Shown here piece by piece: positions 39,749 to 58,875 of a stretch of DNA of 64,000 bases. Source of the stretch: Rubellicoccus peritrichatus. Lineage in GTDB: Bacteria > Verrucomicrobiota > Verrucomicrobiia > Opitutales > Cerasicoccaceae. The DNA lies in contig NZ_CP136920.1 of NCBI RefSeq assembly GCF_033100135.1, forward strand, positions 1,364,001 through 1,428,000, in the 5' to 3' direction. Numbering within the stretch: position 1 is the first letter of the stretch; every line of letters begins with the position of its first letter. A model generated the notes under the pieces. That model was not told the DNA's origin, did no database searches, and saw nothing but the letters and a program-made list of their open reading frames with translations. A program made the position numbers and the translations under genes.

Positions 39749-42700
39749 ATGAAAATTTCTAATTCTGGCAATTTCTCATCAACATACTTCATACATACCT
39801 TCTTTGGTTTGCTGGCCGGGATTGCTCTATTAAGCGCATCAATTGTGCATGCGCAATGCGGCCCTGATTGTAATGATGAGATAGAAGTGGATTTCTACGG
39901 CGAGATACTGGAGCTTGGTTATGTTATGTTATGGAGTCCAAATGGTATCTCCTTCAACGGTTCATTACTGACTTCTACCGGGGGGGCTACTGGCGCGTGG
40001 TTTTACGATTATCCTTCATTGAAAATGCCATTAGACACGGACGTTGATTTGCAGTTTCTCGGTTCAGTGTTCCGGTCGAGTAATGCTGACCCAAATGATT
40101 CTTCCGATATATATTTCAGTGTGGAATTAAGAATTCCCATTTGCTATAAAAAGATATCCCATAATGGAGAGGTGTTCGAGCTGACGGAGGAAGAGGGGTA
40201 TGGCATCGGTCTCCCGAATACCGAAGAGCAGGCAGACGGGACATACGTAAATGTGGTTTATTTTTCACAGGATACTGACGTTAATCCATCTGACTGGACT
40301 ATTCGTATCATCACCAATGATGAAGAACAATCCGGTGGTGGCACCTCATCCGGCAGCCCGGCTTCGCTTCCGCCGACTCATGCTAGTTTCGATATCCCTA
40401 TGGGGATGGTGGATAAAGAGACTTCTGCCGGGCGCTTGTTTTTTAGTCTGGATGATCTGGTCGAGTCGACTGACCCACTGCTTTCGACTTTTAATTCGCT
40501 CATCATTGGCATCAACCAATATGCCACGGCTGACATCGTGACGCGTAGTGGTGGAGTGCTTGACGGTGCACTTTCGCAAGTGGCGGCGCCGGATGCGCTT
40601 TTTGTTTTTAAAGACGGTTGGTGGAATGGTGATACTTTGCTGGAGGAAGATGGCTACGACGGGCAGCCCTTGACTTCGGGCACTTTTGAAATCATCTCTT
40701 ATCCGACTTATACCGGGACCAATCCTTATACACCATCAGGTAATGCCAATGAGCTCTGGCGTTTCGAGCAGGTCGGAACCACTGCCGGGGGTGACTTGCA
40801 ATTGAAGGTGACGCACATCACCAATCCGGGCCAAGTGGACGAAACCATCGACTGGGATACTTTTGAACGCATTACTGTGGATTACCTGGCAGACGACAAT
40901 GCGAATGGTCTTGTGGGTGGGGCAGCCTTAGTCACTCCTGTCGAAACAGGCTGGAGATGGGTTTCCCAAAGTGGTGACATGACCAAAGACCTCTATTGGA
41001 AGGAAAAGGTGGAACTTGGGCTATCTGATCACCTCTACGAATTTGTTGCCTACTATGATAATCGCACGGGCACGCCAGTGCTCAGTTCCCAGGTCGTTAG
41101 CAAGCATGAGAAAATCGGTGATGACTGGCTTGTTACCAGACAATTCGACGATCCAGACGGGGCCAATCGTATCACGATTTGGACTTATGAGGCAACGGAT
41201 ACAGATCCTGATTACGACTTAGGAGAGCTTATCAGCGTGGAATACCCGGACGCCTCTTGGGAGCACAACGCGGTTTATAACAGCGAGGGTAAAGTTACTA
41301 CGCGCTATCTGCCGTGGAAAGATGTGACGCTGGCTCAGGCCATCGCTACCAGCGGAACAAACTGCAAGGTAATTGAAAAAGAATACGATCCTGAAGCAGG
41401 TGTTGATTACCGCCAAACCACTAAAATCGAAAACATCATTACGGCCAAGTATGAACGCCGCAGCGGTGGCGTTACCCGCCGCTACACCAATGGGACCAAC
41501 CACCTTGATACTGTCAATGACATGCCTGACTCGGTCACCCGCCCTGATGGCACGATGACGAGCTATGTCCGTGAAAATGGTTTTTGGAATCCGACAAATG
41601 AAATCTTTTATCCAGGTAGCACCGATCCTCAACCAGCTGGGACAGTCTCCGCCTTTCGCAAAACGGTGAAGGAAGGCACCAGCACCTCGCCCGAAGGGAT
41701 TGCCAATCAAACCACCTGGCGACGCACCATTACGGTCGATGGCGAACTGATTCTTTCGGAAACGCTGGCCTATGATGGCACGGCGACGCCACCGGTGATT
41801 CAAAGCACCAGTTACAGTGAAACAGCCGACTCACCGCAAACGGGCTGGCGAACCGAAACAGCAACCGACTCCAGCGGACGCACCCTTTCCGAAAACATCT
41901 TTGATGATAACTATCGCCTGCGCGAATCGATTGACGCTTCCGGCATCAAAACGGTTTTCACTTATGATGCCGATGGTCGCACGGAGACGGAAACCCGTGC
42001 CGGTTTAACCACGACTTACCAGTATGATACCCTGGGCCGTGTGGAAGGAACGACCATCACGCCGGAGGGTTTGACCACGCCGGAATTGACCACCAGCACC
42101 ACTTATCACCCCACTGGTGAAGTCCATACGCAAACCGATGAAAACGGCTATACCTCGACTTTTGCTTACAGCAACGGAGGACGCACTCTGACTATGACCC
42201 GCCCTGATGGTTCGACTGAAATTACGGATAGCTACCTCGACGGTCAGACCAAGAGCGTGACCGGCACGGGGTTGATCCATCAGTATTACACTTACTCAGT
42301 TCTTGCCAGCGGCAACCGGGTGACGCGCGATGAGGTCGGTTCCTCCGGCTCTGTGCGCTGGTCGGAACGCGAAACCGACTGGAACGGACGCATCGTGGAG
42401 GAACGCCGTCCGGCTTACTCCGGTGCCGATCATATTACGGCTTACTTTTACAACACCCTCGGTCAACTCTGGAAGCAGACTCGAACGGGTCTCGGTCCTT
42501 TGCTTTTCACTTACAATAGTTTGGGTGAGCGTCTGCGTCAGGGCGTCGATCTGGATGCGAATGATACCTTGGATGAAGCTTCCGGCGAACCGATTAGCGA
42601 AATTTTTACGGACTATCACTTCGATAGCGGCATCTGGTATCAACGCAGTGTTTCCAAACGCTGGTTGACGGATGGCAGTGCCACAGCCACTGACATCAGC

Positions 42701-45700
42701 ACGACTTTGAACCGCCTGACCGGACTTTCCGCCACCACCATGAGCGAAAGCAAAGTAACTGATGTTTACGGTGATGAAACCGTCAGCACGATGACGGTCA
42801 ACCGCGCCACCGCCACCGTGACCCAAACCACGGACTTGCCTGATACCACCCGTGACGCAGTCAGTATCACTATTAGCGGGCGGCTTGATTCCTCGACCGA
42901 TCCGCGTATCCCTGCTGTTGAAAATGGAACAACCAGCTACGCCTATGATAATCTGGGACGGCTGGAAACGATGACCGATCCAACCAATGCTGTCACCACC
43001 CAGACTTATTACGCAAATAGCACGCAACTAAAAACGATTGAACCGGCCATTGGTGCTATAACCGAGTTTGTTTATCGTTCGCAGGGGCAAACCGGAGCCG
43101 GGCAGATAAAGAGTCAGCTAACCAAAAGCGCGGACGGCACGACCACCTTAAGCCAGATGGATTACACCCACGATGCTCTGGGCCGTATCACCAATCAATC
43201 CGGTAGCGGCACTTATCCGGTGGCTTATGGTTTTGATCCGACCTACGGCGATCGCACGACCTTGACCACTTATCGCGGTGTGACCGGCGACGTCACGACC
43301 TGGGTTTATCAACCCGCCACCGGCCTCCTCACCCGCAAGGAATATGCCGACACCAAGGGCACTGATTACACTTACCACGACAACGGCCTGCTTCACACGC
43401 GAGTATGGCAGCGGGACATCGCAGGGCAACGCATCACTACCACCTACACTTACGATGATCTGGGACAACCGGATTTGACGGATTACTCCGACAGCACGAC
43501 CGACATTGACTGGACTTACAACCGTGCCGGACGTCTGACGGGCGTGATAGATGCCGCCGGAACTCACACTATGGATTACGCCGATGATGGGCAACTGACT
43601 GACCACACTGTGATCGGTGGCATCCTTGCTGGTCTCGACCTGAACAACACTTATCCGGCTCATGGTAAACGCGAGGTTTTGAGCGCAAGTCTCGGTGCAA
43701 CCGACTTGCTCAACCATCAATACACTTACCATGCTGATACCGGACGGTTGGATACGGTCAAGGATCGCAACCCGTCGGGCCTCGGCCAGATTGCCAAGGC
43801 CACTTACGCATACAAACCCGCCACTCATTTGACGGAATCCATCACCCTGCAAAACGCGACGACGGATGTTCTCACACGCTCGATGACTTATGATGCCCTG
43901 CATCGGGTTGATACCCTGACGGCAAAAGATGCTTCCCTCAACACGCTCAACTCCCACGATTACCTTTACGATGCCCGTGGCCGCCGCGAGCGCAACGACC
44001 GTGAAGACGGCACTTACTGGATTTACGGATACAACGACCGCAACGAAGTCATCAGTGGGAAGAAGCACTTCAGCGACGGAAGCATCATGCCGGGGCACGA
44101 CTTCGGTTATCAGTTTGATAACATCGGCAACCGCGATGACATCACCCTTGAAGGTCAAATCTATGATTGGGACGCCAACGCGGTTAACCAGGTCACCTCA
44201 CGAGAAATCCCGGCGGACTACACCATCACCGGCACGGCCAATGCGAACGCCGCCATCTTCGTCAACGGCATCGCCGCCGAACGAAACGGTGACTTCTGGG
44301 GCGGTAATGTCACCGTGGACAACAGCACAGCCTCCGTCGCAACACCGCTCAACATCGAAAGCCTCCTGGCCAACGCCGGCCCCAGCGGCGAAGTGTTAAC
44401 CAACTCCGCCAGCGCAGGGACACTCTTCGTGCCACAAACCCCAGTCGCCCCGGCTTACGACGGCGATGGCAACCTTACTCAAGACGGCCGCTGGTCCTAC
44501 ACCTGGAATGCCGAGAATCGCTTGATTGCGATGGAAACGATCCCCGCCGCTTACAACGCTGGAGCCCCACGCGAAAAGCTGGAGTTCGTTTACGACTATC
44601 AGGGGAGGCGCGTTAAGAAAACCCTTTCTTCCTGGGATAGCGGGAGCATGGGATTCGTTGTTGATCGAGAAATAGTATTTATCTACGATGCTTGGAACTT
44701 GATAGCCGAAATCACAACCAAGAACAGCACAACCACGGAACAGACTTACCTCTGGGGCTTGGACTTGAGCGGTACATTGCAAGGTGCCGGTGGAATCGGC
44801 GGCTTGCTCGCTCTTCAATCGAGTGGAAGTAGCTACCTTCCAGCCTATGATGGCAACGGCAACGTGTCGGCTTTAATCGCAGCAATCGATGGCACTCTTG
44901 CCGCCGAATACGAGTATGGACCCTTTGGGGAGCCCATCCGTGCCGAAGGGACAGCTACTGGAGCGAATCCTTTTACCTTTTCAACGAAATACACTGATAC
45001 CGAAACCGGACTGCTCTACTACGGTTATCGGTATTATGATGCCGAATTAGGACGATGGCTCAATCGTGATCCGATTGAAGAAGTAGGCGGGATTAACCTG
45101 TATGGGTTTGTTGAGAATAACGCTATTCTAAATACAGATTTATTAGGTAATAGGATCACTACAAGAGGTAATCAAGGCTTTCGTGATGCTATTGAAAGCG
45201 CTCTAGAGACTATTACAGGGGCTGACTTGGAGTGGTGCCGTTTGGGTGGCCGTAGGCGATCAATGCAATCCGGTTATCGCCTATCGATTATCAGTGATGG
45301 AACAGGTAAAGTTTGGGATGACCTAGAACCTGGTATAACCGGTCTTTTTAGGACTTATCGAATCATTCGCGCCCCATTCACAGACAATGCAAATGCACAA
45401 ACTAGTGGTTGGTTTACTAGAGATATTAATATAAATGAAAATATTAACGTATTGTTGCCGGTTGAGGATGGATTAGATAAAAATGGCAGGCCTAAATATA
45501 GGGATGAACTAGTTCCATTTTCTGTAGTATTGTGGCATGAGCTAGTTGGACATTCTATATTAGCTCTAGGTCATCCATATGAAGACTGGAACATATACTT
45601 TCATTACTGGACTGCGCCAATACTTGGAACTCCACTTCCAGCGGAAGCTGGGCGTGTTGATCCGACAATAGAAATAGAAAATGAAGCGCGTGCAATTCTT

Positions 45701-45739
45701 GGATTACCAAATAGGAGACCTCAATATTATGATTACTAA
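39749..45739 (+). CDS. Sec-exported RHS/YD-repeat protein with metallopeptidase-like C-terminal tip
   Basis: A 1996-residue RHS protein, the polymorphic-toxin scaffold that builds a beta-cocoon around a variable C-terminal domain. Signal peptide residues 1-35 (A-S-I-V-H-A). A large N-terminal region without YD repeats is followed by YD repeats at about 700-1780, for example Y-D-A-D-G-R and Y-D-T-L-G-R. The core ends R-Y-Y-D-A-E-L-G-R-W-L-N-R-D-P-I-E-E, then N-L-Y-G-F-V-E-N-N and D-L-L-G-N. The ~215-residue tip after this is visibly AT-richer and carries W-H-E-L-V-G-H (H1930), an HExxxH variant of a zinc-peptidase motif, so a toxin role is likely but unproven. The stop overlaps a lipoprotein-like gene by 11 bp, the expected place for an immunity gene. 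Confidence 0.88.
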   Translation: MKISNSGNFSSTYFIHTFFGLLAGIALLSASIVHAQCGPDCNDEIEVDFYGEILELGYVMLWSPNGISFNGSLLTSTGGATGAWFYDYPSLKMPLDTDVDLQFLGSVFRSSNADPNDSSDIYFSVELRIPICYKKISHNGEVFELTEEEGYGIGLPNTEEQADGTYVNVVYFSQDTDVNPSDWTIRIITNDEEQSGGGTSSGSPASLPPTHASFDIPMGMVDKETSAGRLFFSLDDLVESTDPLLSTFNSLIIGINQYATADIVTRSGGVLDGALSQVAAPDALFVFKDGWWNGDTLLEEDGYDGQPLTSGTFEIISYPTYTGTNPYTPSGNANELWRFEQVGTTAGGDLQLKVTHITNPGQVDETIDWDTFERITVDYLADDNANGLVGGAALVTPVETGWRWVSQSGDMTKDLYWKEKVELGLSDHLYEFVAYYDNRTGTPVLSSQVVSKHEKIGDDWLVTRQFDDPDGANRITIWTYEATDTDPDYDLGELISVEYPDASWEHNAVYNSEGKVTTRYLPWKDVTLAQAIATSGTNCKVIEKEYDPEAGVDYRQTTKIENIITAKYERRSGGVTRRYTNGTNHLDTVNDMPDSVTRPDGTMTSYVRENGFWNPTNEIFYPGSTDPQPAGTVSAFRKTVKEGTSTSPEGIANQTTWRRTITVDGELILSETLAYDGTATPPVIQSTSYSETADSPQTGWRTETATDSSGRTLSENIFDDNYRLRESIDASGIKTVFTYDADGRTETETRAGLTTTYQYDTLGRVEGTTITPEGLTTPELTTSTTYHPTGEVHTQTDENGYTSTFAYSNGGRTLTMTRPDGSTEITDSYLDGQTKSVTGTGLIHQYYTYSVLASGNRVTRDEVGSSGSVRWSERETDWNGRIVEERRPAYSGADHITAYFYNTLGQLWKQTRTGLGPLLFTYNSLGERLRQGVDLDANDTLDEASGEPISEIFTDYHFDSGIWYQRSVSKRWLTDGSATATDISTTLNRLTGLSATTMSESKVTDVYGDETVSTMTVNRATATVTQTTDLPDTTRDAVSITISGRLDSSTDPRIPAVENGTTSYAYDNLGRLETMTDPTNAVTTQTYYANSTQLKTIEPAIGAITEFVYRSQGQTGAGQIKSQLTKSADGTTTLSQMDYTHDALGRITNQSGSGTYPVAYGFDPTYGDRTTLTTYRGVTGDVTTWVYQPATGLLTRKEYADTKGTDYTYHDNGLLHTRVWQRDIAGQRITTTYTYDDLGQPDLTDYSDSTTDIDWTYNRAGRLTGVIDAAGTHTMDYADDGQLTDHTVIGGILAGLDLNNTYPAHGKREVLSASLGATDLLNHQYTYHADTGRLDTVKDRNPSGLGQIAKATYAYKPATHLTESITLQNATTDVLTRSMTYDALHRVDTLTAKDASLNTLNSHDYLYDARGRRERNDREDGTYWIYGYNDRNEVISGKKHFSDGSIMPGHDFGYQFDNIGNRDDITLEGQIYDWDANAVNQVTSREIPADYTITGTANANAAIFVNGIAAERNGDFWGGNVTVDNSTASVATPLNIESLLANAGPSGEVLTNSASAGTLFVPQTPVAPAYDGDGNLTQDGRWSYTWNAENRLIAMETIPAAYNAGAPREKLEFVYDYQGRRVKKTLSSWDSGSMGFVVDREIVFIYDAWNLIAEITTKNSTTTEQTYLWGLDLSGTLQGAGGIGGLLALQSSGSSYLPAYDGNGNVSALIAAIDGTLAAEYEYGPFGEPIRAEGTATGANPFTFSTKYTDTETGLLYYGYRYYDAELGRWLNRDPIEEVGGINLYGFVENNAILNTDLLGNRITTRGNQGFRDAIESALETITGADLEWCRLGGRRRSMQSGYRLSIISDGTGKVWDDLEPGITGLFRTYRIIRAPFTDNANAQTSGWFTRDININENINVLLPVEDGLDKNGRPKYRDELVPFSVVLWHELVGHSILALGHPYEDWNIYFHYWTAPILGTPLPAEAGRVDPTIEIENEARAILGLPNRRPQYYDY

Positions 45740-46091
45740 AACAGGCAGGATTATAATCAGTATTACGGTATTATTTACATTGCTTTTGTGTGCCGCATGT
45801 GAATCAGAAAACATAAAAATGGATTCGGAGAGAATTGACCCTATACTTAAGAAACATTTCGAAAGTGATTTCGACAAAGCAGGGCTTAATGAAGTTTCTC
45901 CCGAAACGTATTTAAAGCTACGGGACAATACTGAGTTATTAAAATATGAGTTACCGAATGACCCAAGTATTGCTGATGATTTTGTATACACAATATATAA
46001 AGATTTAGAATCAGGAGACTATTGGATCGTAAAACGTGGTGGGTTTGCTGGCGTAACTATTGTTTATGCAAGTACAACGACCAAACCTTAG
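45729..46091 (+). CDS. Small lipoprotein-like exported protein, candidate immunity protein 1
   Basis: A 120-residue product beginning inside the end of the RHS gene (ATG 45729, RHS stop 45737-45739). The n-region and hydrophobic stretch (I-I-I-S-I-T-V-L-F-T-L-L-L) lead to C-A-A-C at 21-24, with C24 the plausible lipidation site, although the -3 residue is Cys rather than Leu. The mature domain (S-E-R-I-D-P-I-L-K-K-H-F) is a small alpha/beta fold with no family I recognise. The overlap with a toxin-tipped RHS gene and export to the envelope suggest it protects the cell from the tip. The frame extends back to 45681 but ATG 45729 fits the signal. Confidence 0.7.
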   Translation: MITKTGRIIISITVLFTLLLCAACESENIKMDSERIDPILKKHFESDFDKAGLNEVSPETYLKLRDNTELLKYELPNDPSIADDFVYTIYKDLESGDYWIVKRGGFAGVTIVYASTTTKP

Positions 46092-46178
46092 CACGCCTGG
46101 TGCCATATGAAAAGCAGGGGCTCAGCTTCTTGGGCCAAGCAGCAGTGCTTTGCAACATAAGCCTATCATCAGAATGCC
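46089..46178 (+). repeat. RHS cassette junction sequence, copy A
   Basis: A ~90-bp segment about 80-85 percent identical to copy B at 46725-46818. It begins on the TAG stop of the preceding gene (TAGCACGC...GTGCCATA) and runs through GCTCAGCTTCT and CTTTGC-ACATAAG to CAGAATGCC, then for about 25 bp weakly into RHS-core-like sequence before diverging. A one-base deletion breaks the frame compared with copy B. The following 46179-46265 holds no gene. Confidence 0.75.
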
Positions 46179-46265
46179 CCGCCTCTGGCCTTAGTAGCTT
46201 CATCAGTGAATCAGGTTGCGTCGATACCCTAAAATTTGAAACACTTGTCTTAGCTAATTTAGCCC

Positions 46266-46727
46266 ATGAAGTTATTTACACATTATTTTCGCTTCTTACT
46301 TTTCACAAGTATATCTATATCCATTACAAGTGCAACGACGGTAATTCCATTCGAAGAGCTCATTGAGGGGGCGGATCTTATTGTTTATGGAGACATTTCG
46401 ATAAACGAGAGTGAAACTCTCGAATTGATTTATAACGGTAGTGAATCACGATTATATGCATTTGGCATATTGCATTATAAAGGGCATGTCCCTATGGGAT
46501 TGAGGAAAGAAGCCAAAAGTATGCCTGCTGGGTTCAAAGTCATTTTTGAGAGAAGCAACATGGACTCCTATTCTGCAATCAAGAATGGTCTTTGGTTGAT
46601 TGAATATAGTAACTTACTCGATGTTTTCTACCTTAGATATCTCAGTCCTGGACCATATCCTAATCTAAGATCATATCTTGAAGGATTCAGAAAATCAGAA
46701 AAGACAACACCAACAGTAGAACCCTAG
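46266..46727 (+). CDS. Exported small protein, candidate orphan immunity protein 2
   Basis: A 153-residue protein with a Sec signal peptide (F-R-F-L-L-F-T-S-I-S-I-S-I-T-S-A, cleavage near 23) and a mature domain containing I-V-Y-G-D-I-S, W-L-I-E-Y-S-N-L and Y-L-R-Y-L-S-P-G-P-Y. I do not recognise the family. It stands between junction copies A and B with no toxin of its own, so it may be what remains of a cassette whose RHS/toxin part was deleted; this is inference from the layout. Confidence 0.6.
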   Translation: MKLFTHYFRFLLFTSISISITSATTVIPFEELIEGADLIVYGDISINESETLELIYNGSESRLYAFGILHYKGHVPMGLRKEAKSMPAGFKVIFERSNMDSYSAIKNGLWLIEYSNLLDVFYLRYLSPGPYPNLRSYLEGFRKSEKTTPTVEP

Positions 46728-46818
46728 CACGCACAGTGCCATACTAAAAAACGTGAGCTCAGCTTCTCGGTCCAAGAGGAGGCGCTTTGCCACATAAGAC
46801 CTATCTTCAGAATGCCTC
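46725..46818 (+). repeat. RHS cassette junction sequence, copy B
   Basis: Matches copy A from the TAG stop of the preceding gene (46725-46727) through CAGAATGCC, and then continues without interruption into an RHS-core reading frame (from about 46819). It contains AGGAGG at 46777-46782, 4 bp before the TTG at 46787. Confidence 0.78.
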
Positions 46819-48208
46819 AGCACACGGCCCCAGTGGCGAAGTGCTAACCAATAGTGCTAGCGCTGGAACACTCTTCGTTCCACAAACCCCTCTTGTTCCA
46901 ACCTACGACGATGACGGCAATCTCACCCAGGATGGTCGCTGGTCCTACAGCTGGAACGCCGAGAATCGATTGATTGAGCAAGACACTTTAGCCTCGGCTG
47001 TGACTGCTGGTGCCGAAGATTATAGAGTCACCTATCAATATGATTATTTAGGTCGCATGTTTGAGCGCGTTGTCTATAAAGATGATGTCGTGGAAAGCAC
47101 CGAACGTTTCATCTGGGACGGATACAATCAGGTCGCCAAAGTGGACGGCTTAGGCAATCTCTTGCAGACTTACCTTTGGGGTTTGGACTTGAGCGGCACA
47201 TTACAAGACGCTGGAGGCGTCGGCGGATTGCTTTCTGTCACGGACTCAACAGGAACATCGGATGAAACCTTCCTCGCCTTCTACGACGGCAACGGAAACA
47301 TCATGGGTTACGCCGATGCGTCCGACGGTTCCATTGCCGCAAACTTCGATTATGGCCCATTTGGAGAATCCTTGCGCGAAAGTGGCGATGATGTGGGCAA
47401 GCTGGATTTCCGTTTCTCAACCAAAATCAGCGATAGTATAACGGGCATTATACATTACGAGTTGAGGGATTACAACCCAGAGAGTGGTCGCTGGCTCAGT
47501 CGCGATCCTATTGAAGAAAACGGAGGACTGAACTTATATGGATTCGTTGGAAATGATGGGACGAACAATGTTGATATTTTGGGCTTATCCATCACGATTA
47601 ATATAGGATATGATAGTGAAGGGACAAAAGTAAGGTCCAGGCTTGAGAGAATGACTGTAGCGCTTGATGAAGTCCTAAGGAAATGCAAAGAGAACTTCGG
47701 ATTGGATGTAGAGTATGATATCAATGAAGTTGGGACTGATATCGTCAAGACACCATTACTTAGAGGTTTCGGTAGGGTTGGAAACAGAATCAATGACTAT
47801 GGTTATGATTTTGTTGGTCAATTCAAAAACAGATATAATATGACAGACTCAGAATACTCACGGTCACGCTACAATGAGGCAATTACTATAATACAAAGGG
47901 CAGGAGATGGTGTCCCAGTATTGCTTACTGCGGGAACGATTAGGGTTGCCGATGGTATAGCTGAGGGGGTTGCCTTCGACAATCAATCTATCCTTATAAA
48001 CCTTGACCCAACAAATGGAACTTTAAACAGATACGTTTTGGCACATGAGTTAGGTCACTATGCAGGCTATGTTCCACCTAGTGAATTTCTTGCTGATGAT
48101 GGACATCATTACAGCGAGAGTACGAATTTAATGCATGGCCCAGCGGGATCAGAGCCAGATTGTGGTTATTGCATAGCCCTTTGGGCTCTTTCAACAGAAG
48201 AAGAATAG
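46787..48208 (+). CDS. Orphan RHS 3' cassette with zinc metallopeptidase-like toxin tip
   Basis: A 473-residue product that repeats the last part of the main RHS core. The block G-P-S-G-E-V-L-T-N-S-A-S-A-G-T-L-F (from ~15) and D-G-N-L-T-Q-D-G-R-W-S-Y are shared with residues ~1545-1590 of the large gene, and the core ends R-W-L-S-R-D-P-I-E-E, N-L-Y-G-F-V-G-N-D. The ~210-residue tip is different: it has H-E-L-G-H at 420-424 and N-L-M-H at 447-450, reminiscent of a zinc peptidase active site and Met-turn. It lacks a signal peptide. A TTG start with an AGGAGG site 4 bp upstream could allow expression, but the cassette may instead be a silent donor for recombination into the large gene. Confidence 0.75.
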   Translation: MPHKTYLQNASAHGPSGEVLTNSASAGTLFVPQTPLVPTYDDDGNLTQDGRWSYSWNAENRLIEQDTLASAVTAGAEDYRVTYQYDYLGRMFERVVYKDDVVESTERFIWDGYNQVAKVDGLGNLLQTYLWGLDLSGTLQDAGGVGGLLSVTDSTGTSDETFLAFYDGNGNIMGYADASDGSIAANFDYGPFGESLRESGDDVGKLDFRFSTKISDSITGIIHYELRDYNPESGRWLSRDPIEENGGLNLYGFVGNDGTNNVDILGLSITINIGYDSEGTKVRSRLERMTVALDEVLRKCKENFGLDVEYDINEVGTDIVKTPLLRGFGRVGNRINDYGYDFVGQFKNRYNMTDSEYSRSRYNEAITIIQRAGDGVPVLLTAGTIRVADGIAEGVAFDNQSILINLDPTNGTLNRYVLAHELGHYAGYVPPSEFLADDGHHYSESTNLMHGPAGSEPDCGYCIALWALSTEEE

Positions 48209-48226
48209 ATTGTTATATAACTTATT

Positions 48227-48802
48227 ATGAAAAGAACGATCACTTGTTTGCTTATCATCATCGCCCAATACGGATATGCCCACAGTCCTGTTAAATTACA
48301 ATCAGGGCTTGAAGAAATTAAGCTGAAAAGTTTGGAATACGAAGCATTGCTAAGCTCGCTGGCAACAATTGAATTCCTTTCCTGTATGGCCATACATAAA
48401 CCAGATACTATTTATCTTGATATGAGCTCAGTTGAAACCATTGAAACACTTGAGAAGGGTGAGAATTTACACTATCTTGTTCAGCTTCGGCTTGGAGATA
48501 CCATAACCAGGAAAATTGAGATCAAGGGGAAAGAAATTCTCTTATTCTTCACAAGATCTGGCCCGCCAGTCCTTTCTAAGAAGGGGAAAAACGAACCCCG
48601 TGTAGTCGTTCGTGTTTTCAATTTTGATGGTAATCTCACTCAGAATAAAATGGATCTCGAAGGCGATATTTTTGATGTAACTCGATATCGAATGACCTAT
48701 CGAATACTCCAAGATGGTTTTTCACTTATCAGTATGGTTGAGTTTGAGCCTAAAACTGACAGTGATGTCATAAGAGCAGAGCTTGTCGGGAGCGAGAACT
48801 AG
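48227..48802 (+). CDS. Exported small protein, candidate immunity protein 3
   Basis: A 191-residue protein starting 18 bp after the orphan RHS cassette. The signal peptide (M-K-R-T-I-T-C-L-L-I-I-I-A-Q-Y-G-Y-A-H-S, cleavage near 18) is markedly similar to that of the later gene at 49723. The mature domain has L-D-M-S-S-V-E-T-I-E-T-L-E-K-G and a beta-rich end (R-V-V-V-R-V-F-N-F-D-G-N). No known family is recognised. Position directly after a toxin-like tip and predicted export suggest the cognate immunity protein. Confidence 0.65.
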   Translation: MKRTITCLLIIIAQYGYAHSPVKLQSGLEEIKLKSLEYEALLSSLATIEFLSCMAIHKPDTIYLDMSSVETIETLEKGENLHYLVQLRLGDTITRKIEIKGKEILLFFTRSGPPVLSKKGKNEPRVVVRVFNFDGNLTQNKMDLEGDIFDVTRYRMTYRILQDGFSLISMVEFEPKTDSDVIRAELVGSEN

Positions 48803-48835
48803 AGCCGATTGCGTAACAAGTCCAACGGTAGAAAC

Positions 48836-48904
48836 TTAGCGTGCTGCGCCACATGAGCAATGACCTCAACTTCTGGCTTATAGAAGTAGCACTTTGAATG
48901 CATG
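48836..48904 (+). repeat. Degenerate RHS cassette junction sequence, copy C
   Basis: A weaker copy of the junction: TTAGCGTGC, GCCACATGAG, CCTCAACTTCT and CACTTTG appear in the same order as in copies A and B. It begins 34 bp after the preceding gene rather than on its stop codon and runs into a decayed toxin tip. Confidence 0.5.
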
Positions 48905-49036
48905 CATGTTCACCCTAATGGACTGCTTACCCCATCAGAGCCCGGTGATACTGATACGAGAGATGCTTGGCTTGAGTCTAGTCCAAATACTCGATTTACT
49001 ATCCTTGTGCCTTGGGGAGAATATCGTCATTACTGA
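48890..49036 (+). pseudogene. Decayed toxin-tip remnant (JAB/DUF4329-like H-x-H-P-N-G)
   Basis: A 48-codon open run with no start or RHS core. It reads F-E-C-M-H-V-H-P-N-G-L-L-T-P-S-E-P-G-D, then A-W-L-E-S-S-P-N-T-R-F-T-I-L-V and a stop after Y-R-H-Y. H-x-H-P-N-G...P-S-x-x-D is the metal-binding signature of JAB-type and DUF4329-type C-terminal toxin domains. It lies between junction copy C and an exported small gene (5 bp downstream), exactly where a toxin tip should sit. Confidence 0.55.
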
Positions 49037-49041
49037 TTAAA

Positions 49042-49587
49042 ATGAAATATAAAAAAATACTAATACTAATACCTTTATTTATTTTTGACTTGTATGTAGA
49101 TACGAATCATCAACTTTATATTTCTACGTTGAAAGCTGAGTTTGTTGATTTATTCGAGCCAGAAGTTCGAGTTAGTGTGGAGCTAAATAATTCGATCGAA
49201 ACACCGGTGATGGATTCAATTGTCATCGATTACATAGGTAAGACGGTTGTCATTGAAAGCGAAGAGTTGTCTGCCTATGAGCATCCTGATGTCGCTTCCA
49301 TCAAAGTCGAAAGGCCTTCGATGGGTTCTTATGATGAAGAAGGAAATGAAACTGCTGAGAGCAAGTCCACGCTTTATGTGAGTATAGAATTCTTCAAGAA
49401 TTCAATATCTGCGTGGGACCTTAATTCTAAAAAATGTCTTGTGATATTTGCAATATCAGAAGGCACATATCAATATCAGGTGGTGCAAGCCGAAGGCCCA
49501 TCAGCCATTGAAATACTCTATAAAGTGCGCGGTTCTGATCAGTATTTGGCAAACCGTTCAGCAATAAATGAGTTAACTGAACATTAA
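49042..49587 (+). CDS. Exported or membrane-anchored small protein, candidate immunity protein 4
   Basis: A 181-residue product. The N-terminus has K-Y-K-K followed by I-L-I-L-I-P-L-F-I-F-D-L-Y-V, a signal peptide or anchor without an obvious cleavage site. The mature domain begins L-Y-I-S-T-L-K-A-E-F-V-D-L and includes V-V-I-E-S-E-E-L-S-A-Y-E and W-D-L-N-S-K-K-C-L-V-I-F. No family is recognised. It follows the decayed toxin tip by 5 bp, as an immunity gene would, and may survive because it still protects. ATG 49042 is used; an upstream non-ATG extension is not supported. Confidence 0.6.
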   Translation: MKYKKILILIPLFIFDLYVDTNHQLYISTLKAEFVDLFEPEVRVSVELNNSIETPVMDSIVIDYIGKTVVIESEELSAYEHPDVASIKVERPSMGSYDEEGNETAESKSTLYVSIEFFKNSISAWDLNSKKCLVIFAISEGTYQYQVVQAEGPSAIEILYKVRGSDQYLANRSAINELTEH

Positions 49588-49722
49588 GGCGATTGCGTAA
49601 TATGAAAATCTAGATGTGAAGGTGAAACCCTCATGAGATAATTGAAGCAGGTCGTATTATATGTGGCGCATTTATTCGATAATGCTAACGCAGCTTAATA
49701 ATTATACATCGTTTCCAATGTC

Positions 49723-50658
49723 ATGAAAACTGTCATCTACTTGCTTATATTAGCCACACAATATGCGTATGCTGATAGTTCTACTCAAAATCAGCGTTCG
49801 GTTATTGATATACTTGCACTCATGGAGCCTAACACAAGTATTCGAAATGCTGCAGAAATGTCGCGCATATTCAGCTCTAAAATTCCATTTGATCTGGAAT
49901 CAAACCATGGTGATGCTGAGGTGTTTGCAGCTTACTCTCAGACATTGCAAGGGAACTTGGTTGTCAGTGAATCAAGTTTCATAAGTTGGTTAATGCAGAA
50001 GAAAACTGTGTTCAATGAAAGTGAGAAAGAAAATTATATGCTTTTTGATTTTGCAAAGGCATTCAGGCAAGAGCTGGCATCTTCAAATTTTTCAGACTGG
50101 AAGCTAGCAGATATTGGAGACGAAGGAATGATGCCTCTCGTAACCGATCCATCGAAGCCCATGTCATTATATGATAGCCTTTTTCAATTCAGTAGTTTTT
50201 CGATGTTGATACCTCTGGCAAACCCTATATCAAAAGAGATTGCCCTTATCTCTTACGACAAGGCAGGTAGTTTGATTAACATGAACATTGCATGTCTTAA
50301 AGCGAGAGCTTCAATGCCCTTGAATGACTTGCTTAATGTGAGGAAAATGCGCACTTCTTTGCTGAATGCCTCATCAATCAATCTGGTCAAAGACCCTGGT
50401 AAGTCTGATGAATTACATATAGTATTAGGGAATCAGAGGATTAAGGCATTGCTACGCCCAGGAATCTTTCACTCTAAGGAATCATTAATTATTGGAGAAG
50501 ATTTTGAAACCCTTGAAGACTTTATAGACAGACTTGGCTCACTTGGGATTGTTATGAGCTACAACCCGGACGGATATGTTGAACTTGTCAGCATTATAAA
50601 CTATTTGTATGAGAATAAGCTAATTGAGAAGTCATCCTCAGACCCATTTGCTAGATAA
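49723..50658 (+). CDS. Exported protein of unknown function at end of cassette array
   Basis: A 311-residue protein with a signal peptide (M-K-T-V-I-Y-L-L-I-L-A-T-Q-Y-A-Y-A, cleavage near 17) that resembles that of the 48227 gene in both protein and DNA, although the mature parts do not look alike. The mature part is mostly helical (I-D-I-L-A-L-M-E-P-N-T-S, F-D-F-A-K-A-F-R-Q-E-L) and has no motif I recognise. The 135 bp before it begins GGCGATTGCGTAA, close to CCGATTGCGTAA at 48807, another hint of cassette structure. Confidence 0.6.
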   Translation: MKTVIYLLILATQYAYADSSTQNQRSVIDILALMEPNTSIRNAAEMSRIFSSKIPFDLESNHGDAEVFAAYSQTLQGNLVVSESSFISWLMQKKTVFNESEKENYMLFDFAKAFRQELASSNFSDWKLADIGDEGMMPLVTDPSKPMSLYDSLFQFSSFSMLIPLANPISKEIALISYDKAGSLINMNIACLKARASMPLNDLLNVRKMRTSLLNASSINLVKDPGKSDELHIVLGNQRIKALLRPGIFHSKESLIIGEDFETLEDFIDRLGSLGIVMSYNPDGYVELVSIINYLYENKLIEKSSSDPFAR

Positions 50659-50769
50659 GTCTGCAGGACTCTTGTGTATGGGGACACAATCCAACCAAAG
50701 ATAGCAGATCGTTTGCCATCTCTATAGGGTTCTTAAAATTATTTGTTAACTTTCGAGCCAGCTTCTTGA

Positions 50770-50801
50770 GGCGTGGGATTTATGTCGCCCCATGCCTTTT
50801 T
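50770..50801 (+). terminator. Terminator-like hairpin after cassette array
   Basis: GGCGTGGG (50770-50777) pairs with CCCATGCC (50789-50796) with one mismatch, followed by five T. It lies 112 bp after the last stop of the cassette array. Confidence 0.65.
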
Positions 50802-51116
50802 ATCCATCCGAACGTTGCAAGGTAAGGCCCTCCTCCTCCAATTACCCTGTCCTTTCTAACCGAACTTGAGTCACCGCCGGAATGTGCTGCATTCGCTGCC
50901 CAGAGGGCACCCGCTTAAGCACCCCTTCGGGCACGCCTGACGGCGCACCATCTCCGCGCTGTCGCGCTCCGTCACCGTTTTGGTATCAACCGCGGAGCTG
51001 CGTGTTCCCGTCACCGTTTTTCCTCAATTCGTGTGAGGCGGCCAACTCTGCTTTGATGCACTTTGGTATTTGATCTCCGGAATGTAATGATCAACGAACA
51101 AGCATCAAATGCAAGT

Positions 51117-51143
51117 GAGCAACGCGACCGGCCTTGAGTCTGT
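51117..51143 (+). repeat. 27-bp direct repeat, left copy
   Basis: GAGCAACGCGACCGGCCTTG and the next seven bases match 54346-54372 at 23 of 27 positions in the same orientation. Both copies lie next to a phased short-repeat array, and together they bracket the 51753-54124 gene group. Confidence 0.65.
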
Positions 51144-51190
51144 TCAGCAAGTCGAAACCAACTTGCTTGTCTCGTCAGCTGACACTACAG

Positions 51191-51290
51191 TATTGGCAAT
51201 AGACTCAGGCCTTGCGGCAACTGTCTTTGTCCTTGTGGCAGTTACCATTGCCCATAAGGCAGTTGTCTTTGCGCTTTAGGCAATGGCCTT
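51191..51290. repeat. Five-unit array with GGCA cores every 21 bp
   Basis: GGCA occurs at 51195, 51216, 51237, 51258 and 51279, exactly 21 bp apart, each inside a TTG-N-GGCA-R-like context; two units are perfect small palindromes (ATTGGCAAT, TTGCGGCAA). Units 2-4 also share TGTCTTTG or a variant of it. The 21-bp period equals two DNA helical turns, so all cores face one side. There are no long spacers, so it is not CRISPR. Confidence 0.75.
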
Positions 51291-51752
51291 AGACGCAAAA
51301 TCTACCTCATCCGAAGGAATATAAAGGAAAAGACAAAAGTGAACAGTACACGCCAACCATAAGCACAGTTTTTGCCATAATTTGGCTTTGGTCGCGCTAT
51401 GCAGTTTTTGATTCGCTTTGCTCAGGGCTTCGCCCCATCCCGCTGAGCGAGATGCCCATCTCTGCTATGCTCCGTCGATGACGAACCCTTCACTTGTTTA
51501 AGGGAAAGCTCACCTACTTCTAACTGAACAACGAAACACTTTGCCCTCCTCGTGGCGCTGTCCCGGTTTACCAGAGAAATCCTTTGATCTATTTCAATCA
51601 GAACTCTCGTTTCGACTTCGGTAACCGTGTCGCCATGCTCCCCTTAAACCGTCTTGATTTGTCTGAGAACTCTGATTGGAATACAAGTAATGTCAATTTG
51701 ATATTATAGTATTGACCTGATCTCTTTAGCTTCTTCTGATTCTACAGATAAT

Positions 51753-51953
51753 ATGCTGTCTTTAATCTTATTGGTGCTGATGATTGTTCTTTCGGTCTTG
51801 TTCTTCAATGAGCTTGGATTGAAAAAGGTTTTGATTTTTAACGGAACTTACTGGGGAGTTGGGGTATTGTTGTTCCTTGGCGTGCCTGGTTATGTGATCC
51901 TGCTTTTGCATATCGCTATTGTGGGAACCTACTGGATTGTAGCGAAAAGCTGA
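51753..51953 (+). CDS. Small two-helix membrane protein
   Basis: A 66-residue protein that is almost entirely hydrophobic, with helices at about 2-19 and 32-62 (the second possibly two short helices), separated by F-N-E-L-G-L-K-K. I do not recognise it. It ends 20 bp before the next gene on the same strand, so the two are probably co-transcribed. Small size makes this call less certain than its neighbours, but the composition is unlike a random frame. Confidence 0.5.
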   Translation: MLSLILLVLMIVLSVLFFNELGLKKVLIFNGTYWGVGVLLFLGVPGYVILLLHIAIVGTYWIVAKS

Positions 51954-51973
51954 ATGTTTGGTCGGGTGATGCT

Positions 51974-53506: not shown

Positions 53507-54124
53507 ATGAACTACAGAAGAAGAGAAGGAAAAGTTGCCATCATCATACTTGGCGTCATGATTATCGGGCTTGTCGTTTATATCGGCAGTTTTCTGTTGG
53601 ATGTCGGTGGAGATTTTAAGCAGGTATCTGAGCAGCAGGATAACGTTAGGGAATTTGACCCTTCTTTAAAAAAATTGCTGGAGGCGGAGGGCCTCCTGAT
53701 GTCAGACGCGAAAGGGACTGAGCACGGTAATACGACAAAGGCCAAGCGTATTGCCTTGCAATACAGCGTCGCTCTCGGAAACCTGCGGAAGGAATTCTTT
53801 ACTGAAGGCCGGGAACTGCACTTGTCTTTGACGAATGGCGTTTTTATTACCTATTGCACATTGGGTGAAGATAAATGCGCCATTCTCGTTCATGTCCCAC
53901 AATTGGCTGACTACACGGATGAGGCGAAAGAGCTGCTTCATGACATCGCCTGGGCAGCTGCGGTGAATACATTGGAGAAGAATGATCCCGATGCCTTGAA
54001 TAATCTGGCAGTAGGCATTCGCGGTGCACTGAAGTATGATGTTGTTCTGCTTGGAGACAAAGATGGCATTGTTGAACGGTTTGGTCATATTGATGGCCGT
54101 AAAACTTTGAAGGACTTTTTTTAA
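53507..54124 (+). CDS. Membrane-anchored protein, unknown
   Basis: A 205-residue protein with a basic n-region and one transmembrane helix at about 9-31 (V-A-I-I-I-L-G-V-M-I-I-G-L-V-V-Y-I-G). The rest, probably periplasmic, has L-L-E-A-E-G-L-L, G-V-F-I-T-Y-C-T-L-G-E-D-K-C-A-I-L-V-H-V-P and W-A-A-A-V-N-T-L, suggesting a compact alpha/beta domain. I do not recognise the family. It is the last gene before the 22-bp palindrome array and has 69 bp between it and the DUF4375 gene. Confidence 0.6.
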   Translation: MNYRRREGKVAIIILGVMIIGLVVYIGSFLLDVGGDFKQVSEQQDNVREFDPSLKKLLEAEGLLMSDAKGTEHGNTTKAKRIALQYSVALGNLRKEFFTEGRELHLSLTNGVFITYCTLGEDKCAILVHVPQLADYTDEAKELLHDIAWAAAVNTLEKNDPDALNNLAVGIRGALKYDVVLLGDKDGIVERFGHIDGRKTLKDFF

Positions 54125-54173
54125 TTTCATAGGAAGTCCCTGGCTTTCAACCAAGCTACAATAAACGGTCACC

Positions 54174-54324
54174 ATTTGGGCTGGGCCCAAATCTGAAATT
54201 GGGCGTCGCCCAACAACCTTTTGGGAACCGCCCAACAACCTTTTGGGCGTCGCCCAATGAACCGTTGGGAACCGCCCAATACGGAAATGGGCGGTTCCCA
54301 ATTTCATATTTGGGTGCCGCCGAA
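54174..54324. repeat. Seven-unit palindrome array, TTGGG-N5-CCCAA every 22 bp
   Basis: Fifteen-base palindromes start at 54176, 54199, 54221, 54243, 54265, 54287 and 54310 (steps 23, 22, 22, 22, 22, 23) with 7-8-bp spacers. Central bases are CGTCG (units 2 and 4, perfect palindrome TTGGGCGTCGCCCAA), AACCG (3 and 5), its reverse complement (6), CTGGG (1; arms extend to ATTTGGGC) and a degenerate unit 7. Spacer CAACCTT occurs twice. The 357-bp stretch 54125-54481 has no gene; this array fills most of it, followed by the 27-bp direct repeat. Confidence 0.85.
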
Positions 54325-54345
54325 TTTTTTCCCGTTTCCTTTGGT

Positions 54346-54372
54346 GGGCAACGCGACTGGCCTTGGGCCTGT
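54346..54372 (+). repeat. 27-bp direct repeat, right copy
   Basis: GGGCAACGCGACTGGCCTTG and the next seven bases match the copy at 51117-51143 (23 of 27, same orientation). It begins 22 bp after the last palindrome of the array. Confidence 0.65.
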
Positions 54373-54481
54373 GCTGGTGAATGGACTTGTGTAGCCAATG
54401 TTTCGTCAAGTCTAACTCTGTGATCTTTGCGTCTTGGACGCAGCGTAGCGGACGAGAGATCATGATACTGCATTGGTGGTT

Positions 54482-55450
54482 TCATTCACTTCCTCGTCTC
54501 ACACTTCCGGGGGTCTGTCCCGTTGCCTTTTTATAGGCCCGTGAGAAACTGGCCTCACTTTCGTAGCCTAGCTCCTCTGCAATCCCGGCAAGCGTTTTAT
54601 CGGTATCAACCAACCAGCCGTGGGCTACTTCGAAACGCCATTGCCTCAGGTAAGCCATCGGAGTCTGGCCAACAAGATCGACAAAGCGGGCCGCGAGGCC
54701 GGAGCGCGAGACCCCGACTGTTTCAGCAAGGCTTTCTACCGTCCAATGCCGCGTCGGTTCCTGATGTATGAGGCTAAGTACTCGTCCGATCTGCCGGTCC
54801 TGGAGAGCACCGAGCCAGCCGGTTTGTGCATGGGGATCGGTCTGCAGCCAGTGGCGGATTGCCTGCAAAACAAAGATGTCGGATGTTCGAGTGAGAACGG
54901 CGTCGCCACCAGGGCCGAGGCTGATTGCTTCTTGCAGCATCAACTGAACCGATGCGCGAAGCCATTCGTTGCCTGGGGTCGAAGCCTGCATTAATATGAT
55001 CTTTGGCAGGAGGCTGACCATGCGTCGGGCCGCAGGATCTTTGACTGAAACCACTCCGCAAATAAGTCCAGCGGGAGCGCCTCCTCCATCGATTTTCAAC
55101 AGCTCATAGCGCGGGCTTAGGAGTGGACGCTCGTAGTCGTAAAGGTTTATTGCCGGCGTTTCCGGAGCGTCGAGGATTGCGTGACCACGCCCTTGAGGTA
55201 ATAGGGCAAAGTCTCCCGCCTCCATCGCGAATCGTTCGCCATTGGCAAACCTCACCCACGCAGCCCCCTCGGTTATAATATGGAAGATCAAACTGTCGGA
55301 CATCGGAGGGAGATCAATGCCCCATGGTGCCGTTAGCTCCGACCGACAGAAAAAAGCACCGCTAAAACGCAAGGCATGCAATGCTTCGCCAAGCGGATCG
55401 ACCGAACGAAAGGCTTCGTTGGTGGAGTTAGCAGTCACGACTTCCGACAT
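54482..55450 (-). CDS. AraC family transcriptional regulator with cupin domain
   Basis: A 322-residue regulator of the cupin_6/AraC type. N-terminal cupin about residues 15-190 (G-A-A-W-V-R-F-A-N-G-E-R, G-D-F-A-L-L-P-Q-G-R-G-H); C-terminal AraC domain about 220-322 with V-E-S-L-A-E-T-V-G-V-S-R-S-G-L-A-A-R-F and the signature I-A-E-E-L-G-Y-E-S-E-A-S-F-S-R-A-Y-K-K. I prefer ATG 55450; the frame extends to 55513 with less protein-like residues. It is divergent from the NmrA-like gene (93 bp between starts), which is its likely target. Confidence 0.92.
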   Translation of the reverse strand: MSEVVTANSTNEAFRSVDPLGEALHALRFSGAFFCRSELTAPWGIDLPPMSDSLIFHIITEGAAWVRFANGERFAMEAGDFALLPQGRGHAILDAPETPAINLYDYERPLLSPRYELLKIDGGGAPAGLICGVVSVKDPAARRMVSLLPKIILMQASTPGNEWLRASVQLMLQEAISLGPGGDAVLTRTSDIFVLQAIRHWLQTDPHAQTGWLGALQDRQIGRVLSLIHQEPTRHWTVESLAETVGVSRSGLAARFVDLVGQTPMAYLRQWRFEVAHGWLVDTDKTLAGIAEELGYESEASFSRAYKKATGQTPGSVRRGSE

Positions 55451-55543
55451 GAGGGCGATTTTTGTTTTGTTTGGAGAAATTGTCAATTTTGTTGGAGCCT
55501 GGGCCATATTCATTGCGGGACTACTCTTATATACTAGTCGACG

Positions 55544-58697: not shown

Positions 58698-58875
58698 TTA
58701 GCCACAGAGGCACAAAGAACACAGAGCAAAAAATAAATATTCTTTTTAGCCACGGATGAAACGCCGATTGACACGGATAAAACGCGGATTGCATTCAAGC
58801 GATTTCTTATTCTATCAGCGAAAATCGGCGTTCTATTTGAGGCTAATAAAAACAGCTCTGTGTTCTCTGTGCCTA
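58698..58875. repeat. Double-nested inverted repeat element
   Basis: Outer arms 58698-58727 (TTAGCCACAGAGGCACAAAG...) and 58855-58875 (GCTCTGTGTTCTCTGTGCCT...); inner arms 58746-58778 (TTAGCCACGGATGAAACG...) and 58815-58846, each imperfectly reverse complementary. Both arm types recur in the element at 35468-35780. It separates two convergent genes. Confidence 0.75.

Follow-up and report, generated by a model that had tools for sequence, protein, structure and literature searches.

The palindrome array at positions 54176–54324 of the window is, with a probability of roughly 0.7, one copy of a lineage-specific, non-autonomous repeat that is dispersed between genes, follows a modular plan, resembles BIME and BOX elements, and is mostly neutral. 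The window is the 64,000-nucleotide stretch analyzed here (positions 1364001–1428000 of the single 5,798,774-base contig of the 5.80 Mb Rubellicoccus peritrichatus genome). Most simply, the data are accounted for by a mostly neutral or selfish repeat. Such a repeat could have multiplied through transposition in trans or through recombination among mosaic repeats, RHS loci being preferred or tolerated as sites.

The array consists of seven 15-bp palindromes. All seven unit starts listed in the first-pass annotation are correct, and its description of the units as TTGGG-N5-CCCAA holds for five of them, whereas the unit at 54287 begins with ATGGG and the unit at 54310 ends with CCGAA (one mismatch each). 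The strict 22-bp period it reported is not observed, as the start-to-start steps are 23, 22, 22, 22, 22, and 23 bp, with spacers of 8, 7, 7, 7, 7, and 8 nt (8 nt at the ends, 7 nt inside). Tandem periods of 22 and 44 bp are called by TRF. The unit centers are CTGGG, CGTCG (two units), AACCG (two units), CGGTT, and TGCCG. An inverted center had been noticed correctly, since CGGTT is the inverse of AACCG, but the centers are of more than the two types described. The inversion is explained by the structure of the seven-unit copies, which have a second, inverted head after the tail. When one mismatch is allowed, the window holds eight matches to the unit pattern, seven of them in the array, whereas 100 dinucleotide shuffles averaged 2.18 matches and never exceeded 6. 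The sequence-only profile R1 matches this copy on both strands (plus, 1418172–1418304; minus, 1418196–1418327; genome coordinates). CRISPR repeats are ∼23–50 bp long and are separated by unique spacers of similar length. Units of 15 bp with spacers of 7 or 8 nt, some of them recurrent, therefore do not form a CRISPR array, as the earlier annotation had concluded. The coordinates of the features are collected in the table.

Table. Features of the array, its surroundings in the window, and similar arrays in other bacteria. Positions are those of the window unless a contig stretch (L number) is given.
Feature	Position	Strand	Basis
RHS-repeat ORF, Rhs_assc_core at 44915–45148	39749–45739	+	profile match
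Second, short RHS-core ORF, Rhs_assc_core at 47351–47587, 6.6 kb before the array	46787–48208	+	profile match
Long intergenic stretch (1.3 kb), modules adjoining or near other array copies elsewhere	50660–51973		genome search
∼293-bp module	51336–51629	+	search with the 2686k copy
ORF upstream of the array, 205 aa, no Pfam match, stop ∼50 bp before the array	53507–54124	+	ORF list, Pfam
Whole element copy, seven palindromic units, head-type ends on both sides	54173–54328		alignment of eight copies
Unit 1, TTGGG-CTGGG-CCCAA, head unit	54176–54190	+	sequence
8-nt head spacer ATCTGAAA, 23-bp step	54191–54198	+	ATxTGAAA between units 1 and 2 in 7/8 copies
Unit 2, center CGTCG	54199–54213	+	pattern match
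Unit 3, center AACCG	54221–54235	+	pattern match
Unit 4, center CGTCG	54243–54257	+	pattern match
Unit 5, center AACCG	54265–54279	+	pattern match
Unit 6, ATGGG-CGGTT-CCCAA, tail-type, inverted center	54287–54301	+	ATGGG tail unit in 7/8 copies
8-nt spacer TTTCATAT, inverted form of the head spacer	54302–54309	+	also in the 2399k copy
Unit 7, TTGGG-TGCCG-CCGAA, second head, inverted orientation, followed by a T run	54310–54324	+	sequence
Convergent AraC-type regulator with cupin domain (Cupin_6, HTH_18)	54482–55513	−	Pfam
Similar 15-bp palindrome arrays, other bacteria	L043 681–906; L051 1–185; L054 4172–4354; L047 7370–7680; L053 274–354		pattern search

The genome-wide search for the motif at 22-bp spacing that had been proposed as a check was carried out, and it bears out the phasing. 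Each strand has 35 occurrences of the exact unit, and 32 of these sit in eight arrays with steps of 22 or 23 bp. The control pattern, which is the same motif read backward, is found three times, and the exact units that lie singly outside the arrays are likewise three. A chance origin is rejected by the shuffle counts together with the ratio of 35 to 3. The arrays, which comprise 47 units altogether, are located near genome positions 110.1k, 928.8k, 1270.6k, 1418.2k (the window copy), 1471.1k, 2399.7k, 2686.9k, and 2759.2k, and each element is ∼105–150 bases in length. A blastn search with an 82-nt stretch of array returned 23 matches. All of those at an E value of 0.01 or better fall within the eight arrays, and three other matches have an E value of 5, which is the chance level. 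Profile R1, which was built from all eight copies, recognized no further array among the 150 candidates scored out of 352 at first look. A 453-kb scan, covering the window plus the fetched stretches, for unit pairs with no more than three mismatches together agrees with this result.

When placed in a common orientation, the copies display a shared plan: a head unit, the 8-nt spacer ATxTGAAA, unit 2, a 7-nt spacer, an AACCG unit, further units phased at 22 bp, and an ATGGG tail unit. Head unit, head spacer, and ATGGG tail are present in seven of the eight copies, and the center of unit 2 is CCCAG in six. The exception is 1270k, in which ATGTGAAA precedes the first recognizable unit (center CTAGG), the unit before that is unrecognizable, and the tail is different. 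Copies carry five units (110k, 1471k, and 1270k), six (928k, 2686k, and 2759k), or seven (the window and 2399k), and the second, inverted head beyond the tail is found in both seven-unit copies. The last unit of the window array is identical in 2399k, and its CCGAA end also appears in 2686k. Among the 39 spacers of the eight copies, 29 are 7 nt and 10 are 8 nt long. The arms are nearly invariant and the centers are variable, with TTGGG and CCCAA arms alternating at 10 and 12 bp.

Because the copies agree in unit order, spacer types, and ends, they have spread as whole elements and not by separate local expansions. The 22- and 44-bp tandem periods would also be produced by slippage acting locally on a chance palindrome. 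However, this origin is extremely improbable given the agreement of eight loci in unit order and ends and a unit number that stays nearly constant at five to seven. Internal duplication may explain the difference between copies with five and seven units.

Only the array core can be aligned across the whole set of eight copies. Beyond the array, 928k and 1270k have nothing in common with other copies, 110k and 1471k have another ∼300 bp in common on one flank plus 27 bp on the opposite flank, and the window, 2686k, and 2759k have ∼25–35 bp in common at the head side. The match between the window and 2399k is confined to the array, and 2399k matches 2686k at 80 percent over 590 bp, from the array into the neighboring modules. 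Other modules beside the arrays are themselves dispersed. The long intergenic stretch upstream of the window array has 17 genome matches including itself, several of which lie beside the arrays at 2399k, 2686k, and 2759k, and it also matches at 1463.9–1465.3k, 6 kb from the 1471k array. For the ∼293-bp module, the 2686k copy used as query gave eight genome matches including the query, some of them partial. Neither the long intergenic stretch nor two RHS queries matched anything in 20 spread-out background stretches of 20 kb. The array and the dispersed modules together present the pattern of mosaic intergenic repeats, and some copies may have been moved or duplicated within larger composites. 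Two other short repeats were seen in the window. One is a second, weaker tandem array with a 21-bp period at 51222–51282, inside the mosaic intergenic region, and the other is a 21-bp unit, CACGGATAAAACGCCGATTGA, in two copies at 58751–58791.

The arrays are frequently found close to RHS loci, which are toxin-like. The Rhs_assc_core profile (TIGR03696) has 12 matches in the genome, and an RHS core is found within 10 kb of five of the eight arrays, within 7 kb of four, and within 3 kb of three. The binomial p values for 10, 7, and 3 kb are 2.8e-6, 2.4e-5, and 7.1e-5 (random-site expectation 0.035 at 10 kb), for distance cut-offs that were picked after the data had been seen. At three loci (the window, 928k, and 2399k), the array is located downstream of an RHS gene and small ORFs, and it adjoins ordinary genes. 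At 110k, the array is upstream of the RHS gene, past three more ORFs on the same strand. Besides the large RHS ORF and the short RHS-core ORF, the RHS locus of the window (39749–50658) contains several small ORFs further downstream that lack a Pfam match and look like tip/immunity cassettes. The 2759k array ends 26 bp before the start of a partial RHS-core match (2759255–2759281), and it may coincide with, or lie close to, the breakpoint of a deletion or recombination. Weighing against the repeat reading are the small number of copies (only eight), the three arrays (1270k, 1471k, and 2686k) that are more than 10 kb from any RHS core, and the several RHS loci in the fetched stretches (1176–1179k, 1951k, 3055k, 4010k, and 4264k) at which no array was found. 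RHS loci might be no more than tolerant regions rich in repeats.

None of the eight arrays overlaps an ORF kept by the gene caller, which is a simple codon-score method that omits some short ORFs (e.g., L010:6627–7154 and L014:6725–7081). By its calls, four arrays are situated between convergent genes, three between co-directional genes, and one between divergent genes. The background of 208 gene pairs (400 kb) includes 37 convergent, 141 co-directional, and 30 divergent pairs. This convergent excess is suggestive only, and the numbers are too small for an orientation bias to count. At least one gene 3′ end faces the array at seven of the eight loci. The nearest stop codon is 4 bp away at 1270k, 28 bp at 110k, 47 bp in the window, and 63 bp at 1471k, and is further away in the other four copies. 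The 1270k array occupies a 148-bp gap between a DUF2059 gene and trpF, which are convergent. DUF2059 adjoins trpF in none of nine family relatives, so no empty site is shown by this comparison. GC skew, sampled in 20 stretches, changes sign at 0.89–1.20 Mb and at 3.72–4.10 Mb, which are likely the origin and terminus, respectively. The eight arrays are all found within 0.11–2.76 Mb. A link to one replichore was dropped because the arrays occur on both replichores when the origin is placed at 0.89–1.20 Mb.

In a rival reading, the array would be a phased operator or a platform for nucleoid proteins. A dimer would occupy each 15-bp palindrome, whose arm centers are 10 bp apart, and since 22 bp is about two helical turns, cooperative binding could silence or organize RHS-rich regions. 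The nearly invariant arms, the varying centers, the 10/12-bp alternation, the spacers of 7–8 nt, and the association with RHS loci are all consistent with this possibility. However, isolated exact sites are not above the control (3 versus 3), gene 3′ ends face most arrays and only one array lies between divergent genes, the exact double unit was not found in the sampled relatives, and the array is not consistently better conserved than the modules shared with it. We therefore regard a platform as rather improbable. The cooperative protein binding that the first-pass annotation gave as one of two readings gains no direct support, as single sites equal the control, the neighboring genes differ, and the AraC-type gene points its 3′ end rather than its start at the array. 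Because of this orientation, the array is also rejected as an operator of that gene. The pull-down with nuclear extract that had been recommended is inapplicable because the host is a bacterium. A more specific version, in which dimeric DNA-binding proteins on the arrays mark the edges of RHS islands and control expression or tip-swapping recombination, is speculative and decidedly improbable.

Strong folding is a general property of the copies. The window array has a predicted minimum free energy of −85 (z −7.8) on the plus strand and −78.5 (z −5.0) on the minus strand, and six other copies have z values between −2.7 and −7.2 on both strands (2399k was left out). All 14 strands from these seven of the eight copies are thus below the shuffle mean, with z from −2.7 to −7.8, and in two of the twelve folds of the six other copies, 3 and 1 of 200 shuffles were equally stable. 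Most of the predicted structure consists of nested hairpins that join different units. This finding, along with uncompensated changes in the arms, speaks against the string of small RNA hairpins that had been suggested. Across the five arm pairs of all 47 units, there are 16 one-sided changes and no compensated ones, and many of the changes are inherited copies of one change. A test of a sixth pair in 20 distinct units gave no signal (15 paired versus 15.4 in shuffles), and this pair is unpaired in the commonest center, AACCG. Adjacent units have complementary centers seven times versus 3.5 expected (p 0.04), a number that is not counted as evidence because the copies are related. Arrays with any such pair number six versus 4.9 expected (p 0.28). 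A terminator scan called no site at the window array, though a T run follows unit 7.

If the array were an RNA element, it would be transcribed from the upstream gene and its fold at the 3′ end would protect the mRNA or aid termination, as has been proposed for REP. Such a role would be in keeping with the stability of all 14 folds, the stop codons within 4–63 bp of the array in the four copies listed above, the array that fills a 148-bp convergent gap, the proportion of convergent settings (4/8 versus 37/208 background pairs), and the T run in the window. We nonetheless consider it unlikely, given that the arm changes are one-sided, the AACCG center leaves the sixth pair open, the terminator scan finds no site at the array, and two of the 14 folds are matched by a few of their 200 shuffles. 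In addition, the orientation numbers are too small, and any palindrome array folds well. Under the favored reading as a dispersed repeat, any effect on the cell would probably be secondary, arising from strong folding near gene 3′ ends and perhaps acting on transcript 3′ ends. Homologous patches of this kind might also be able to recombine between RHS islands.

Conservation was compared between the array and the non-array DNA that the copies share. Identities between copies are 92.6 versus 89.7 percent (88.9 over 27 bp), 93.3 versus 83.8 (37 bp), 86.5 versus 91.6, 91.6 versus 87.3, and 83.5 versus 89.4 percent for array and shared non-array DNA, respectively. The array is therefore above the shared DNA in three comparisons and below it in two. 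Since the arm changes are uncompensated and the array is not consistently better kept, selection for a hairpin or an operator is unsupported. At the level of sequence, evidence for selection on RNA structure or protein binding is thus lacking. The similar conservation of array and modules leaves room for a function that depends on nothing but the arms and their spacing.

The exact double-unit pattern occurs 21 times in the host genome. It was found in none of 35 nearest relatives and in none of 386 other genomes of the phylum sample (the sets overlap). A profile search of nine family relatives gave two weak matches with E values of 0.14 and 0.40, which were taken as chance. The genomes covered by these searches included none of the same genus. 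Elsewhere, the exact double unit is present in 16 stretches of GTDB contigs and in four of viral contigs. Six of the 16 GTDB stretches (L043, L044, L047, L051, L053, and L054) contain at least four units with no more than one mismatch, and L044 was set aside because it looks low-complexity. Stretch L053, from an uncultured Verrucomicrobia bin, has four TTGGGTGGCACCCAA units at 22 bp, and L049 of the same bin has two units with a 23-bp step, lying in the 96 bp that separate convergent ORFs. The arrays in L043, L051, L054, and L047, with periods of 21–24 bp, come from Bacteroidales-type bins and Arthrospira. These occurrences suggest that the palindrome-array form arises repeatedly, and as the stretches were chosen by the same arms, homology is not implied. 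An origin from phages or plasmids is unsupported: a search of the phage and plasmid collections with the 2686k array plus 34 bp of its flank gave no match, and the pattern from head to unit 2 is found in no viral contig.

For now, the array chiefly represents a new family within a familiar class of repeats, since small intergenic repeats are known in other bacteria. The family is compact, well delimited, and mosaic, has been found so far in one genome, and lies nearer RHS loci than chance would predict. If the link to RHS loci holds in sister strains, it will provide a route to examine whether the exchange of parts between RHS islands is helped by small repeats.

The earlier statement that no named element has this form agrees with our searches. 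Rfam returned two sub-threshold matches for 54100–54400, NrsZ at 27 bits (gathering score 76.9) and mir-BART5 at 24.7 bits (gathering score 70), and nothing at gathering score for the seven related loci. The small RNA NrsZ (RF02695) is rejected by its score, and the weak match to its covariance model is probably due to the serial stem-loops. A literature search found no description of this element. Neisserial intergenic mosaic elements with dRS3 join short palindromes to other repeat modules between genes, with arms and spacing that appear to differ from those of the array. With regard to transposons and MITEs, both ends are of the head type, in inverted orientation, in two copies (the window and 2399k), and no target-site duplication was seen by eye.

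The array resembles REP and BIME sequences in its regularly spaced short palindromes (steps of 22–23 bp), its intergenic location in all eight copies, its strong folding, and its mosaic neighbors. REPs are reported in the verrucomicrobium O. terrae, with the tetranucleotide GTAG or CGTC marking one end of each palindrome (PMC3733652). In contrast, the eight array copies, inspected by eye, have no common GTAG or CGTC tag at the ends of units or elements; CGTC is present inside two unit centers of the window copy. REPs usually exceed 100 copies per genome (PMC2817692), whereas 47 array units are distributed among eight loci. Array units are also shorter, at 15 bp repeated every 22 bp, than REP/BIME units of 20–40 bp. 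The genome has three matches to Y1_Tnp, none of them beside an array by coordinates, and a REP linked to a tyrosine transposase (RAYT) is therefore rejected. The best of these matches (L070, 2542337–2542678) has an inverted repeat with GATAGACGCGTTGCGTCAATCCTTCGCTATGTGAT on both flanks, seen by eye and unrelated to the array, and it resembles the TIR-flanked tyrosine transposases of PMC3733652. Because the tag, a linked RAYT, and high copy number are missing, the array is not classified as a REP.

The BOX elements of streptococci have the structure boxA-boxB(n)-boxC and a predicted RNA fold (PMC3049150). The boxA and boxC modules are ∼50 nt, in contrast to the 15-bp units and 7–8 nt spacers of the array. 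Compared by plan only, both have a head module, a variable number of tandem middle modules, and a tail module. By analogy, the array would work like a BIME or a BOX element, being modular, intergenic, palindromic, and dispersed.
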